IMG/VR virus record: IMGVR_UViG_3300044980_000208
Location: 1-41,310 of that record
Direction: 5' to 3' (one strand)
DNA length: 41,310 nucleotides
Source: a virus
The position numbers and the translations under genes were made by a program. Position 1 is the first letter of the stretch. Each line of letters begins with the position of its first letter. Shown one piece after another: positions 15,100-41,310 of the stretch. The notes under the pieces were generated by a model, which ran no database searches, was not told the DNA's origin, and saw only the letters and a program-made list of their open reading frames with translations.

Positions 15100-15426
15100 T
15101 TAAGGTGACGACGCGCTAGTAGCACGCGTACAAAGTAGGTTTCGGATGGCCGTATCTTGGGTGATCGCTTGCGCTTGCGCGAACTTGACCGCCAAAGTGG
15201 CATTCTGTGCTAACATACCAGAATAGTATGGATCTCGATAAATCAGATTCATCGAGTAGCCATCTTGATTTATGTGCGTTACAGCCTGTTTTCCAACGAC
15301 TGTATTGTAATAGACATCGGCACCATTAGCAGATGCTTTACGCGCAACAGGAGCTTCTGATGAGGTCAGGATGCGTATATTAAATACAGATCCATACTCA
15401 GCAGGAAGAGCTGAGGCGTTAGTTGG
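15100..15426 (-). CDS. Major capsid protein exon 3
   Basis: 108 codons plus stop. An apparent ATG at 15429-15427 consists of the last three intron bases and would yield a 109-residue fragment; it has no ribosome site. Encodes the C-terminal part of the capsid fold, with EYGSVFNIRILTSSEAP and GADVYYNTVVGKQAV. Confidence 0.85.
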   Translation of the reverse strand, partial: PTNASALPAEYGSVFNIRILTSSEAPVARKASANGADVYYNTVVGKQAVTHINQDGYSMNLIYRDPYYSGMLAQNATLAVKFAQAQAITQDTAIRNLLCTRATSASSP

Positions 15427-16883
15427 CATTATCTGTTACTTTTATGACCTACATGATATAATGTCTAAATGATTGAATATGTTTTATTGATCACATTCTT
15501 TACATTCGTTTGTCAGTTATCATTAGTGTTCTACGCTAAATATTTCATCAAATAGGCGGAGCAACCTCTTCGGATCGCTCTCTCATAGTTACCTATGAGT
15601 TCAGACTATCGCATCCTCTTTCGAGGCCTCTGGATTTAGTCGTTCAGGCTGATAATTCCAATAAGCATGTTTTGGTACAGTCACACCTAATTCTCCTTTT
15701 CCTTCAAAATAATAAAAGTTTTCATCTTCTCTTATTAATTTTCCGTAGACTTTCTCACATGCTTGTTTATCCATAATCTTGCCCCTTGTTGTCCTTCGCT
15801 TATGCAGCGAGTGGGAGTTCCAAGTCAATTACCAAAGGTTTAAAGAGTACACAACATTTATACTCCCATTGTGACTTGAAACCTGACCCTGTCAGAGAAT
15901 CAAAGTCTGTTTGCAACTCTGTAGAAGACAGCATAAAATATGCACTTCTTACAGGGCCTGTACCACTTATCTGTTACTTTTGACGCATCTTTGCGTCATT
16001 ATTGACCTGACGCAATATTGCGTCAGGCGAGGAAGCCTATTGCACTTCCCTCAATCAGTTTCCTGACTGTTCAGAGCACCGCATCTCTTTACCCAAGCAT
16101 CATAATTTAAAGGAGCATTTGCCCCCCATTCGGGTATAGAGTCTTCTCGCTTGCTGCGTTCGAGCTGATCATAGATTTCAATTATTTCTCCATTTTCTCC
16201 GAGGATTCTCTTAGGATTTTGTAAAAGAGTCTTCGAAAACCGATCTAATATATTTTCATCCATAATCTTGCCCCTTGTTGTCGCCGTCTTTACGCTGCGA
16301 GTTCCAAGTCTATCAGAGAAGATTTATACAGGTCTAGTACGTCAAACCTGTCCATACCCTCAATGCCAGACATAAATTTGTAGGCATTGTTTGTGTCCAA
16401 CGTAGTAGCAACCAGTGAAAAATCACTGACGCCTAGGTTGGTTGGGTTATCACCGTTGGCTCCGCCGCCTGCATTAATCACAGATGCTGCGGAAACAATG
16501 TAATCGCGGAGGATCAAATCCTCTGCTTGACGCATAGCAACGGCAAGTCGCTCAGAAACCCAGGCAAGAACTCCTTCCTGATCCTGAAGTATGACTTGTT
16601 CGTTGATAATACACCCAGTTCCGAAGAAGGCCATTTGCGCATCTATGATGTCGCGTTGGGGCACTTGGGCTGGGGGATCAATCCCGCTATTGCCCAATTG
16701 GACAGTAGGAGGGACCAATGCCCTTGGTCTCATGAATCGGCAAGTAGTCCCGCCATTAGCTGGCAGCGATACTTTATCCGTAATGAGAATATAGTTCATT
16801 GTTGGCGTTGGGACATAGAGCATCGCAGGCGCAAGCGACTGGAGGATCATAGGGCCCAAATTGCCAGTAGTTGTAATTGACAT
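15100..16883 (-). CDS. Major capsid protein, N4-gp56 type, split by two group I introns
   Basis: Three exons: 16883-16345 (539 nt), 15965-15860 (106 nt) and 15426-15100 (327 nt). Joined, they give 972 nt and 323 residues, a usual length for this family. Exon 1 has LGPMILQSLAPAMLYVPTPT and IINEQVILQDQEG; the exon 1/2 junction reads GMDRF-GTGPVRSAYF; the exon 2/3 junction reads QWEY-PTNASALPAEYGSV, continuing to GADVYYNTVVGKQAV. The pattern 'GTGPVR.AY ... EYGSV.N.R ... G.DVY' is that of N4-gp56 capsids. The protein forms the icosahedral shell on the scaffold encoded just upstream. Read without splicing, it appears as three fragments, and exon 2 has no start codon. Splice sites come from pairing, not from data. 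Confidence 0.88.
15427..15859 (-). ncRNA. Group I intron 2 in the capsid gene (433 nt)
   Basis: P1: exon GAGTAT (15865-15860) pairs with GTACTC (15850-15845), closing with U.G at the splice site. P7: GACTA (15641-15637) with TAGTC (15608-15604) in the contexts GAACGACTAAA and GATGCGATAGTC, typical of group I R and S elements. P8: CCTC-GAAA-GAGG (15626-15615). P9: TCATAG-GTAA-CTATGA (15598-15583). The intron ends AACAGATAATG with terminal G at 15427. Shares GACTTGGAACTC, GACAACAAGGGGC and TCTGAAC blocks with intron 1. Confidence 0.85.
15601..15774 (-). CDS. Intron 2 ORF, 57 residues, unknown
   Basis: ATG 15774 follows AAGGGG at proper spacing, as in intron 1; an upstream in-frame extension to 15828 would read through intron structure and is rejected. 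57 residues beginning MDKQACEKVYGKLIRED, ending in SKEDAIV. No homing endonuclease motif. Its last 18 codons encode P7, P8 and P7', so protein and ribozyme overlap. Confidence 0.45.
   Translation of the reverse strand: MDKQACEKVYGKLIREDENFYYFEGKGELGVTVPKHAYWNYQPERLNPEASKEDAIV
15860..15965 (-). CDS. Major capsid protein exon 2
   Basis: 106 nt encoding GTGPVRSAYFMLSSTELQTD and on to QWEY. It completes codon 180 from exon 1 and ends on a codon boundary. It is preceded in frame by a stop within intron 1 and has no own start, so it is invisible to a simple ORF search. The encoded GTGPVR.AY motif is a hallmark of the family. Confidence 0.85.
15966..16344 (-). ncRNA. Group I intron 1 in the capsid gene (379 nt)
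   Basis: P1: exon ACAGGTT (16351-16345) pairs with GACCTGT (16334-16328), ending in the required U.G pair at the splice site. P3 candidate CTCGC (16301-16297) with GCGAG (16150-16146). P7 candidate AGCA (16155-16152) with TGCT (16078-16075). P9: AGTCAG/CTGATT with a GAAA loop (16068-16053). Two more hairpins lie near the 3' end, including CCTGACGCAATATTGCGTCAGG-type pairing broken at its centre. The intron ends AACAGATAAG with terminal G at 15966. It shares several stretches with intron 2. Confidence 0.8.
16051..16263 (-). CDS. Intron 1 ORF, 70 residues, unknown
   Basis: Starts at ATG 16263 after AAGGGG, the same ribosome site and first codons (ATGGAT) as the ORF in intron 2. 70 residues, acidic and helical (ILDRFSKTLLQNP, EIIEIYDQLERSKRED). 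No LAGLIDADG, GIY-YIG or HNH motif. The reading frame overlaps the intron core (P3, P7, P8), so its sequence is constrained by RNA folding; it may be a degenerate homing gene, a maturase-like helper, or only apparent. Confidence 0.45.
   Translation of the reverse strand: MDENILDRFSKTLLQNPKRILGENGEIIEIYDQLERSKREDSIPEWGANAPLNYDAWVKRCGALNSQETD
16345..16883 (-). CDS. Major capsid protein exon 1
   Basis: Starts at ATG 16883 with an AAGGAA ribosome site. Codes residues 1-179 plus two bases of codon 180 (Phe completed by exon 2). Unspliced translation would continue 18 residues into the intron and stop at TAA near 16290, giving a truncated 197-residue protein. Confidence 0.85.
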
Positions 16884-18110: not shown

Positions 18111-18592
18111 AATTAAATAGATTAGAAACCCACGATCGTTATGAACATTTCACAAAACAACAATTTGACATTTCAGAATGCTGCCAAGAGGTCATTAAAA
18201 ACCGACCTGAAGAATTCGGCAATCATCCTTTTTATATTTTTGCTCACACTCGGACTGATGATGATGGAGTGACTCAAAGATTAATTTGGCAACCGCGACT
18301 AACAAAACCTAAACCGCAGACCAACTCCATGCTGTTTAAGGCATATCCTCCAGGAGACACTATAAAGGTCATTTGGATTGTTCCCAAGCGTGAGCTGTGG
18401 GGTCAGTATGGTAAGGGCCTGATATGCGAAAATAACACCATTTCTGACAGCATAGAGGACTTTAAAAATAATAAATATAAATTGAGCCTTCCTGAAAAAG
18501 ATGACTTAACCGATATTGAAGCCAATGCAATTTACAAGGAAATAGCCCGAAACATTAAAACCCGGAAACTCCATGGAATATCCAAAAATTAA
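18107..18592 (+). CDS. Conserved phage protein of unknown function next to RNA ligase
   Basis: 161 residues. It has strongly patterned segments (FDISECCQEVIKNRPEEFG, HPFYIFAHTRTDDDG, RLIWQPRLTKPKPQTNSM, ELWGQYGKG), suggesting a compact conserved enzyme-like or structural fold found in phages, but I cannot name a reaction. Its 3' end overlaps the RNA ligase start by 20 bp, so the two are translationally coupled. Confidence 0.7.
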   Translation: MKLNRLETHDRYEHFTKQQFDISECCQEVIKNRPEEFGNHPFYIFAHTRTDDDGVTQRLIWQPRLTKPKPQTNSMLFKAYPPGDTIKVIWIVPKRELWGQYGKGLICENNTISDSIEDFKNNKYKLSLPEKDDLTDIEANAIYKEIARNIKTRKLHGISKN

Positions 18593-19247
18593 CAGCCTAT
18601 GGAAGCGACAAAACTGGTATTTTGATCAAGATAAGAAGAAATCGCCAGATTATCAAAAAGGGCGTCAATCATTCATTGTTGGCGACTATGCAGAACCTGA
18701 GTTTGGTTCTATCAAACACTGGAGAGTAGACGAAAAAATTGATGGAACAAATGTACGCATTTTTTATGACCAGGGAAAAGTCACATTTGGGGGAAGAACA
18801 AAAGAAGCCCAATTACCTGTTAATTTATTCGCTTATCTACAGGCTAATTTCGGAGATTGGAATCTTTGTAAGGTCTTTCCAACTCAAGAAAATGAAGCAT
18901 ATCCCAATGTGATTTTATTTGGAGAAGGCTATGGCCCAAAGATCCAATTAGCGGGAAACAGCTATAGAGATGATGTCGGCTTCATATTGTTTGATGTTTG
19001 GGTTGGAGGATGGTGGCTAAAAAGAGAAAACGTGAAAGAAATCGCTAATCAATTAAATATTCCTATGGTGCCCGACCTAGGTATCATGACAGAGGAAGAA
19101 ATTATTGAATTTGTCAAAAGTAAACCCCTCAGCAGATGTTCCGAATATCCTCAAACCATGGAAGGTGTTGTGTGTAGATCAGAGCCCCTGATGTTATTCC
19201 GCAATGGGAAACCATTGATGTGGAAGCTAAAAACAAAGGAATTTTAA
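18573..19247 (+). CDS. RNA ligase family nucleotidyltransferase
   Basis: 224 residues with all core motifs: motif I EKIDGTN with the adenylated lysine at residue 55, motif III LFGEGYG, motif IV TMEGVVCR and motif V MWKLKTKEF. The family (T4 Rnl2-like and relatives) uses ATP to seal nicks in RNA. The protein lacks an obvious C-terminal extra domain. In phages such enzymes repair host or phage tRNA cut by defence anticodon nucleases. It lies in a plus-strand cassette likely gained as a unit. Confidence 0.88.
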   Translation: MEYPKINSLWKRQNWYFDQDKKKSPDYQKGRQSFIVGDYAEPEFGSIKHWRVDEKIDGTNVRIFYDQGKVTFGGRTKEAQLPVNLFAYLQANFGDWNLCKVFPTQENEAYPNVILFGEGYGPKIQLAGNSYRDDVGFILFDVWVGGWWLKRENVKEIANQLNIPMVPDLGIMTEEEIIEFVKSKPLSRCSEYPQTMEGVVCRSEPLMLFRNGKPLMWKLKTKEF

Positions 19248-20795: not shown

Positions 20796-22982
20796 TTATT
20801 GTCCTTGGGCTTGGCCACCCATTGACTGCATTCCCTGACCAGCACCCTGTTCGCCCATTCCACTCATAATCTTAGAGGCAAATTCATTACTCATGGCTTC
20901 TTTGTGCGCTTTATCTTTCTCGTAGTCTTCTTCTTGCATGTCAGTATAATCAAATGAATCAATTTGATGCATTTTTAACTGCGTTTCGATTTCGCCATAT
21001 TTTCCAATGACATCCACCATTTTTTCCAACGCTTCCATTTTTGCTTTAGTCGATAACGCACGATTTTTCGACACCTCAGCCATGCGCTCTTCCAGTAATC
21101 CAATATTGGATTCAAAACGTCCATAACGTTCTTTAGCCATGGCAATGTTATTCGCCGCTTTCGCATAGAGCTCCTTGAGTTTCGCTTCGTCAAATGCATG
21201 TTGTATAGTGGTAGCTTCTTGTTGGACAGCTTGGGCTTGCTGTTCTTGTTGTTGCAGAAATTGTATGGCTTGGGCTTTACCAGTTATATTGAGGTGAGGC
21301 ACAACCATAGATGGAGGAAATACCTCGCGCCCAAAGGCCTGATTGATATCCATTAGTTGCTGGGCCTGCATATTCTGCTGGGTAGGAGTTAATTCCCCTT
21401 CTTCCACTACCACTTGATATCGGGAGAATATTTTACTGTAGAAAAAGGCGGTTGGCTCTTCACCAATTAATAACTTAACTTTCTCTGCAGACCAATTATT
21501 CAACACAATGGACAACAGACGCTGTCCCAATATTTTTAATGATAAATCCCACTGATCAAAATATTTTTGTAAAACCATTAGATTGGCAGCCTGTTTAAGC
21601 ATGGTTGTAAGGCTAGAGGCTTGCTTATCATTCTGAGCCGACCAATTCTCTAGGTCTACCCCAGATGTACCGAAAATAAGGCTTCTAAGCTGATCTGCAA
21701 GGGCCATGTCAGATTCGGGGACTGCCGAGGGTAAGATCTTCTCGCAATCTGTTAATTCATATCCTTCATTGATGATTACATCCCATCCTTGGCCCGACTT
21801 TTTCAAATTGTCTTCGTTGGCTACTGCCCCGACCTTACGTTTCCAACCTTGATTAATAGTCGCTTCAGAAATGTCATGATTGATGATGATACGGCGGTTA
21901 AGTAGGTAGTTAGAATCGCGCATAGTACGCACAAGACCGCGGGCACGTAAATCATAATAGTTGTTATGAGGCTCGTAATTCCAATAAGTGCATACAAAGG
22001 GACAATCATCAAACCCCAAAGGATTATCACCTTGGAACATAAGTTGATCATTGAGAACGACTGCCAATTTCCACGTCGAGACTTCAACTGTTACCTCCTC
22101 CATGTCTTCAATGTTGTATAGGATGCGATCTAGTGTTTCTTGTCCGCCCGCAAAGTCAAAAAATTGATTGCGAGAGTGCGAATATAACCTTTTCTTTTTT
22201 CTCTTCCACTTGTACCATACATAACTTAAGACCATGAGGTCATTGCGTGCCATGTTATAATTTTCAGGTAGAAAATAAAAACTACCATAGCGCTGTGGTG
22301 TTCCTGCCATCGGGGCTATTTGTTGAAGTTTTCCAGGAAAACGAAATTCTGCTTCTTTTTTCGATATATATTCCTGACACCAAACAAATTGAGCATCAGA
22401 CATGTCCGGAGAGCGAAAATACGGATCAACAAGAAAAGAGTTATATTCCCACACTTTTAGCTTTAATTCGCCCTGTGCTTGATCATTTCCATTGTAATCC
22501 AAATAAGGCTGCAACAGAACCATACCCGTAATACATGCTTGCTCACAGGCTCGGGAAAATTGCTCATGAATATCCCCGGCATTGCATACGTGTGTGATAA
22601 GTTTGGTATATTGGTCGGTAGTTTGGGGATCTGCCCCTTCACAGGGAATATAATTTATGGCCTTACGGTGCTGGCGTTGGTACCCGGTGACCATATTTAC
22701 CGGCTGCTGCAGCAAGTTGAAATAGAAGTTCTGGTAACTGAAAGAGGGCGTGAAATTGAAATAACGGTTTATAAAGGTTTGGGAACCTGCATAAAATAGA
22801 GTATCGATGTTTGATTGGTTCCATCGAGTTGACGGTCTAGCGCCCCTACCATGAAGATAGAGGCGCTAGACCCGTGCCTGTTCGATTGGTTGAAACTTTG
22901 AATAGAGATTATCCAACCATTGTCTGACATTTCCTTGGTTGGGCTCAATCGCATTATTCCAAGGGGGATAGTAAAAAGACGT
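20796..22982 (-). CDS. Portal protein (P22-like), frame broken by an amber hairpin near the N-terminus
   Basis: The main open part runs from TTG 22715 to the stop at 20796 (639 residues), with VNMVTGYQRQHRKAINY, MVLLQPYLDYNG and a Gln-rich helical C-terminus, as in P22-type portals (725 residues). Upstream, the same frame continues as conserved portal sequence (WNQSNIDTLFYAGSQTF, then EPNQGNVRQWLDNLYSKF) to about 22982. It contains one TAG (22868-22866) inside a 39-nt hairpin. There is no ATG, GTG or TTG between the TAG and 22715. The upstream part has GGAGGT four bases before an ACG (22982); TTG at 22994 or 23003 are alternatives. Without the hairpin the protein would be about 715 residues. 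Portal identity is firm; how the N-terminus is made is not. Confidence 0.8.
22834..22872. repeat. 39-nt hairpin with in-frame amber inside the portal gene
   Basis: Perfect arms GGTCTAGCGCC and GGCGCTAGACC. The loop can extend the stem by a G.T pair and CTATC/GGTAG, leaving 5 unpaired bases. Exact removal (13 codons) joins CAGGCACG to GTCAACTCGATGG and keeps the portal frame (QAR-STRWNQSN). It contains the only in-frame stop of the portal frame. Confidence 0.8.
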
Positions 22983-40970: not shown

Positions 40971-41310
40971 CTATGTTGTGAAGTAAAACCCGGAAAAACG
41001 GATTGAGGTATTGGCTGCAAAATTGGTGTCTTTAGCAATCACAGTGACAGCGCCTGGTTCATATTGTACTAAGGTTACAGTGGGGCTTCCGGTCACGGTA
41101 GAATATGTGAGAAGAATGTAATTTGTGGTAAACGTGAAATTATTTGAGAATACAACTAAACCGCGAAATTGAGTTCCTCCCGTATTCACCGGAAATCCTG
41201 TTATAGTGGCATTACCCGTTGAAGTTCCGTTACTACTTAATGTGATGAGCAAATTAAAAAAAAGAACGTCCCCGATCTGCGTGTATTGACCACTTTGTGT
41301 AGTATAAGTA
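40971..41310 (-). CDS. Tail or fibre protein, 3' part of gene crossing the contig join
   Basis: C-terminal continuation of the gene that begins at 327. The part from 41183 to 40971 supplies 71 codons including the stop; 41184-41310 duplicates codons already present at 1-127. An internal ATG at 41252 could look like a start, but the open frame extends upstream through the join, so this is not an independent 93-residue gene. It ends 8 bp before the next fibre gene (start 40962). Confidence 0.8.
   Translation of the reverse strand, partial: TYTTQSGQYTQIGDVLFFNLLITLSSNGTSTGNATITGFPVNTGGTQFRGLVVFSNNFTFTTNYILLTYSTVTGSPTVTLVQYEPGAVTVIAKDTNFAANTSIRFSGFYFTT
41184..41310. repeat. Terminal direct repeat (right copy)
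   Basis: Exact copy of bases 1-127. It lies inside the tail gene that starts at 327 and ends at 40971 on the circular map. Confidence 0.95.

Follow-up and report, generated by a model that had tools for sequence, protein, structure and literature searches.

A phage major capsid gene in three exons, interrupted by two predicted self-splicing group I introns of a recurrently inserting family

The major capsid gene in the window, the stretch of 41,310 nt of viral DNA analysed here, is almost certainly a three-exon gene with two group I introns that are predicted to self-splice in frame and that belong to an abundant, recurrently inserting family. The phage with this split gene is a soil or freshwater phage. 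The gene is arranged as follows, R1 being the covariance model described below.

16345–16883, minus strand: capsid exon 1, 539 nt, residues 1-179 plus two bases of codon 180
15966–16344, minus strand: group I intron 1, 379 nt, insertion site 179.2, R1 match 16326-16069
15860–15965, minus strand: capsid exon 2, 106 nt, without start codon, residues 180-215 (about 35 residues)
15427–15859, minus strand: group I intron 2, 433 nt, insertion site 215.0, R1 match 15722-15599
15100–15426, minus strand: capsid exon 3, 327 nt including the stop codon, residues 216-323

Exons 1, 2 and 3 were joined at the splice points given in an earlier reading of the letters alone (the sequence-only reading). As proposed there, the predicted splice product, with all pieces on the minus strand, translates in frame into 323 residues and a stop codon. 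The 5' splice site of exon 1 lies directly after a U, and the predicted junctions are GACAGGTT^TGGTACAGG and GGGAGTAT^CCAACTAAC, corresponding to the peptides GMDRF-GTGPVR and QWEY-PTNAS. The spliced protein matched TIGR04387 (N4-gp56 family major capsid) with 86.4 bits, against 35.8 bits for exon 1 alone, 25.3 bits for exon 3 alone and a curated cut-off of 60 bits, confirming that an N4-gp56-type capsid sequence lies here in three pieces, the middle one lacking a start codon. The match to PHROG phrog_1357 ('major head protein') improved from about 3e-4 for single pieces to 1.7e-17 after splicing. When a profile of the capsid family was compared with solved major capsid proteins, 9e99 was matched (E 4.5e-8); the spliced protein had zero matches among INPHARED phages. 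A predicted structure of the capsid protein was set aside (pLDDT 33).

Capsid relatives were retrieved from IMG/VR with six short peptides, and the best 80 of 238 were compared with the window. These 80 mostly had one unbroken frame through both window junctions, at about 85-93% identity. Contiguous homologues of about 90% identity were present in more than 70 viral contigs, and the stretch corresponding to exon 2 was contiguous as well. The extra sequence in the window therefore represents insertions, and the middle exon is ordinary capsid sequence. Comparison with these relatives demonstrates both the gene structure and the variation in presence and absence of the inserts.

By eye, both inserts have a common stretch like CTTGGAACTC...GACAACAAGGGGCAAGATTATGGAT, plus a conserved 3' half. 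The following elements were assigned to intron 1:

16328–16351, minus strand: P1 and P10, with P1 formed by exon ACAGGTT (16351-16345) and guide GACCTGT (16334-16328)
16274–16322, minus strand: 5' core, P3 5' strand UCUUCUC (16322-16316), P4 CUUG (16308-16305) / CAAG (16277-16274)
16053–16155, minus strand: 3' core, P7 AGCA (16155-16152) / UGCU (16078-16075)
16148-16142, minus strand: P3 3' strand GAGAAGA, pairing with UCUUCUC
16141-16132 and 16094-16085, minus strand: P8, CUCUAUACCC / GGGUAAAGAG
16068-16053, minus strand: P9, UCAG-GAAA-CUGA, GNRA cap GAAA
16051–16263, minus strand: small ORF, 70 aa, from the start of the P6 region through the P7-P9 core

The corresponding elements of intron 2 are:

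15845–15865, minus strand: P1, exon GAGTAT (15865-15860) with guide GTACTC (15850-15845)
15785–15838, minus strand: 5' core, P3 5' strand CCUUUGG (15838-15832), P4 CUUG (15824-15821) / CAAG (15788-15785)
within 15785–15838, minus strand: P5, UCGCU/AGCGA
15559–15649, minus strand: 3' core, P6 3' strand and P7 GACUA (15641-15637) / UAGUC (15608-15604)
15633-15627, minus strand: P3 3' strand CCAGAGG, pairing with CCUUUGG
15626-15615, minus strand: P8, CCUC-GAAA-GAGG
15599-15582, minus strand: P9, CUCAUAG-GUAA-CUAUGAG, GNRA cap
15580-15559, minus strand: P9.1
15601–15828, minus strand: small ORF, 75 aa if started at TTG, 57 aa if started at the ATG that follows AAGGGGCAAGATT

Both P1 helices of the sequence-only reading were found exactly as described there, each closing in a U.G pair: intron 1 forms 7 bp (6 Watson-Crick pairs plus the terminal U.G) and intron 2 forms 6 bp. 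Each intron also has a P10 helix, absent from that reading. In intron 1, GUACUA, immediately upstream of the guide, forms 6 bp with UGGUAC, with which exon 2 begins; in intron 2, GUUG pairs over 4 bp with CAAC of exon 3. The two introns end in ...AACAGATAAG and ...AACAGATAATG, respectively. The final G claimed for both is present, but in intron 2 it lies one base later than the G after AACAGATAA that had been named. The R- and S-like elements reported for intron 2 were located as GAACGACTA (R) and GATGCGATAGTC (S), and GNRA-capped P9 hairpins exist in both introns (GAAA and GUAA), as had been noticed. P5 of intron 1 lies between the P4 strands, and the register of this 5' core was taken from alignment A1 (see below). 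The P6 pairing is clear in intron 2 only, P7 of intron 1 is short (4-5 bp), and no P7.1/P7.2 was seen between P3 and P8.

The core pattern drawn from the window inserts matched at least 119 stretches in other viral contigs. Alignment A1 comprised 23 ORF-less intron cores from other viral contigs and capsid loci, none of them from the window. When a P3-P4-P5-P6-P7-P8 structure with a P3/P7 pseudoknot was applied, 96.5% of the cells were paired, and 107 cells were compensatory, compared with 29 after shuffling (0/500 shuffles reached 107) and 7-25 when the structure was slid. Two-sided changes were found in 7/7 pairs of P3 and 4/4 pairs of P8, and the P7 pair at columns 101/141 occurred as A-U, G-C and U-A. 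The covariance model R1 was derived from A1 with the window excluded. In a search of the 41-kb window it detected intron 1 (52.9 bits, E 2.5e-9) and intron 2 (44.7 bits, E 1.4e-7), and nothing besides. Because an independent model finds both introns and nothing else in 41 kb, they are not a chance resemblance. R1 puts the 5' half of intron 2 inside the ORF, on account of which it skips the true 5' half; the correct P3 and P4 were placed by hand.

We then considered the splice-site helices of 233 different introns, as placed by spliced alignment. P1 with the intron's own exon averaged 5.8 bp, compared with 3.8 bp for a swapped intron (p 1.8e-29), and P10 averaged 3.5 versus 2.5 bp (p 4e-14). 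Homologous introns were present at site 179.2 in four contigs (L214, L216, L228, L260) and at site 215.0 in four (L206, L229, L237, L275). Same-site introns elsewhere share the guide GACCTGT, and they are just 49-69% identical to those of the window over aligned bases, whereas the capsid proteins are about 90% identical. The intron fold and the splice-site helices are thus demonstrated by comparison. The proposal of group I introns in the capsid gene was upheld by the uninterrupted relatives, the covariance model, the P1 and P10 helices and the same-site introns elsewhere.

The Rfam group I model RF00028 gave no match to the window introns, either at the gathering cut-off or at E 10, and none in the relatives, including an ORF-less family member with a covarying core. 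The sequence-only reading had regarded a missing Rfam match as decisive against the introns. However, the T4 td and nrdB introns used as controls scored 40.3 and 35.7 bits, both below the gathering cut-off of 50. Since these controls stay below the cut-off and the ORF-less covarying relative is missed, the Rfam test is unable to refute the introns. The T4 introns are like those of the window in their group I core and in the U.G pair at P1. They differ in that R1 finds neither of them, and in that Rfam scores both, albeit below the cut-off, and the window family not at all; this family is harder for the Rfam model than the introns of T4. A BLAST search with intron 2 against sequenced phages gave only one match of 29 nt, in Acinetobacter phage ME3.

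We infer that the predicted splicing occurs and is efficient, and the capsid protein would very probably be made only after splicing. Few phage proteins are made in such amounts as the capsid, and splicing would therefore need a very high efficiency. The introns might instead be group I-derived but splice inefficiently in the window phage, which would then be poor in capsid or dependent on helpers (proteins or intronless co-infecting phages). The short P7 of intron 1 and the ORF running through its core would fit this improbable case; however, the core helices, P1 and P10 are all intact, and the exons experience strong purifying selection. Between the window and its relatives, dN was about 0.08 with synonymous sites near saturation in all three exons, including exon 2, and exon differences were overwhelmingly synonymous. 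The same values argue against a defunct, broken-up gene copy or a misassembly, which we rate as very improbable. It is true that the capsid ORFs look broken to a gene finder, as the sequence-only reading expected of automatic annotation, but the record looks complete, no second capsid copy was found within the 41-kb window, and insertions at homologous capsid sites occur in contigs of many different metagenomes. Insertions at the protein level, such as inteins, are hardly conceivable here, given lengths of 379 and 433 nt that are not multiples of three, in-frame stops, and strong RNA structure where no intein domain was found; inteins do exist in phage genes, crAss-like TerL being one example. 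Equally far-fetched is a capsid put together from parts that are translated one by one: exon 1 and exon 3 each possess an ATG codon, but exon 2 has no start codon, the frame of exon 1 continues into intron sequence, and the relatives have one chain.

Turning from the window to its close relatives, we picked the 80 nearest ones by exon 3 alone, which avoids a bias to intronless ones. Introns were located by a splice-aware protein alignment that prefers a U before and a G at the end of the intron. A low intron penalty produced spurious mini-exons, and hence the alignment was rerun more strictly; the strict run was used. Capsid introns, one to five each, interrupted 50/80 relatives (none in 30 loci, one in 16, two in 13, three in 13, four in 6 and five in 2); some of the 80 loci nearly duplicate one another (71 different coding sequences when the window is included), and the counts refer to close relatives of the window. 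Among all close relatives retrieved (the close clade), 122 distinct introns occupied at least 39 sites, 16 of which were used in two or more contigs; a site was counted when the two core elements were present together with a P1 of 5 bp or more, and neighbouring sites at residues 88-123 are less certain. In deeper relatives (45% identity and below) the capsid gene was heavily split, too. The two introns that the sequence-only reading called unusual for one capsid gene are therefore modest in a lineage with up to five, and a crAss-like Zeta-group capsid gene consists of five fragments (PMC7886860).

In 30 mostly full-length records, 62/68 R1 matches fell into the capsid gene, which together with its introns accounts for 6.2% of the bases. 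The other six were located just upstream of portal residue 1. L134, L174, L177 and L292-L297 carry R1-type introns within or adjacent to the 5' portion of the portal gene, which is a second, weaker target of the intron family. The concentration in the capsid gene and the scattered distribution of the introns are both established by this comparison of contigs.

In a tree of 71 spliced capsid genes, intron presence per site changed nearly once per carrier. Sites 28.2, 163.0 and 181.0 had 6 carriers and 6 changes each, and the window sites 179.2 and 215.0 had 5 carriers and 5 changes each; the tree is that of a single gene, and the changes may be gains or losses. LAGLIDADG-like ORFs were recognized by motif in 31/122 close-clade introns, some on the opposite strand, and two of the three intron ORFs checked passed the Pfam LAGLIDADG_1 cut-off. 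Many other introns contain ORFs of 60-130 aa; these start immediately downstream of the P6 5' strand and continue through the 3' core, and several of them matched DUF551. The window ORFs (70 and 75 aa) are of the same size, and neither a known domain nor a recognisable homing endonuclease was found in them. Small P6-region ORFs begin right after AAGGGGCAAGATT (L124, L109, L182 and L275 among others), and its GGGG could be their ribosome-binding site. The C-terminal end of these ORFs (QPERSKRED...) is specified by intron core sequence. At capsid site 104.0, inserts of 950-990 nt (L206, L216, L219, L244, L274, L285) carry ORFs with two LAGLIDADG motifs and match the core motifs of the family poorly; these inserts may represent a different type of intron within this gene.

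In the proposed mechanism, guanosine would attack after the U of the P1 U.G pair. The freed exon U would then attack after the terminal G of the intron, with P10 aligning the exons, and exons 1, 2 and 3 would be joined in frame to encode the 323-residue capsid protein. The introns belong to an abundant phage family that inserts repeatedly into the capsid gene and more rarely within or beside the 5' portion of the portal gene. Homing or frequent loss would explain the scatter of the sites, and the family most likely spreads through homing by intron-encoded LAGLIDADG endonucleases. The two copies in the window may have lost their endonucleases or never had them, and would either need endonucleases from elsewhere or be passively inherited. 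It is conceivable, though rather unlikely, that in this capsid hub of a Rfam-missed family, with its dozens of sites and rapid turnover, the introns are kept for the benefit of the phage. Splicing might time late expression, or intron endonucleases might disable the capsid genes of co-infecting intronless relatives; a passage of PMC11620839 reports such disabling of co-infecting relatives for an intron endonuclease of phage PhiPA3.

Introns in capsid genes as such are of an already known kind. The capsid gene of the crAss-like Zeta group (cMAG OLRF01000054) is split into five fragments by four introns (Yutin et al. 2021, PMC7886860). As in the window, capsid fragments of an uncultured metagenomic phage are separated there by group I intron segments, but the group is unrelated, its genomes measure 145-192 kb, and introns and inteins are spread across many core genes. 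In contrast, the window phage has a genome of 41 kb and an N4-gp56-family capsid, and the matches are concentrated in one gene; that paper describes one example, whereas at least 39 sites over many contigs are described here. For mycobacteriophage LittleE, splicing of a major-capsid intron was verified by RT-PCR and peptide sequence (Pope et al. 2013, PMC3706429), and a capsid intron of lactococcal Tuc2009 is among the cases that this paper cites. The LittleE intron likewise has a U before it and a G at its end; unlike the window's, it is a single 819-bp intron with a predicted LAGLIDADG gene and without a multi-site pattern. In Bastillevirinae, 45 introns were described in 37 genes of four families, up to three per gene (PMC11878797), which also cites the group I introns of Twort (Landthaler & Shub 1999). 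These phages resemble the window in that a gene can hold two or three group I introns, and many of these introns encode homing endonucleases. They differ in the genes concerned, mostly DNA polymerase, followed by terminase, nucleotide reductase and thymidylate synthase, and in an intron type that is mostly of the IA subgroup. New are the phage lineage, an intron family that escapes Rfam, and how many sites are used in a single gene.

Most close relatives carry capsid introns, and each phage has a different set of sites. A single gene thus comes naturally with anything from 0 to 5 introns while its proteins stay about 90% identical, a series in which one could measure what introns cost, how targets are chosen and how homing elements turn over. 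With gene finders and Rfam-based annotation, many such viruses would be reported without an intact capsid gene.

Several other features of the window were recorded. A 127-nt direct terminal repeat is present (1-127 and 41184-41310), and the record therefore looks like a complete genome. An RNA ligase domain protein is encoded at 18573-19247 on the plus strand (Pfam PF09414, 4.4e-21). Six matching contigs were found in MAGs of unrelated phyla, and we therefore do not claim a host. The portal gene contains an insert of about 48 nt (22825-22872, minus strand) that splits the frame ...QPIEQAR / WNQSNIDTLF..., with an in-frame UAG two codons past the conserved Arg-Trp junction. It forms a hairpin of 17 bp, GGTCTAGCGCC...GGCGCTAGACC (-34 kcal/mol, z -6.4), and it is not a group I intron. 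The insert is absent from most relatives, and it occurs at the same point in five divergent contigs, namely the window, L298 (3020), L299 (1372, = L301), L300 (4153) and L321, with lengths of 48, 47, 48, 60 and 48 nt; L298 is thus out of frame. These contigs are 66-81% identical in the 3' flank, and the stem is kept by wobble changes in L321, while the loop is variable. The insert resembles the translational bypass of T4 gene 60, except that the take-off codon CGG and the landing codon CGA/CGT are not identical.
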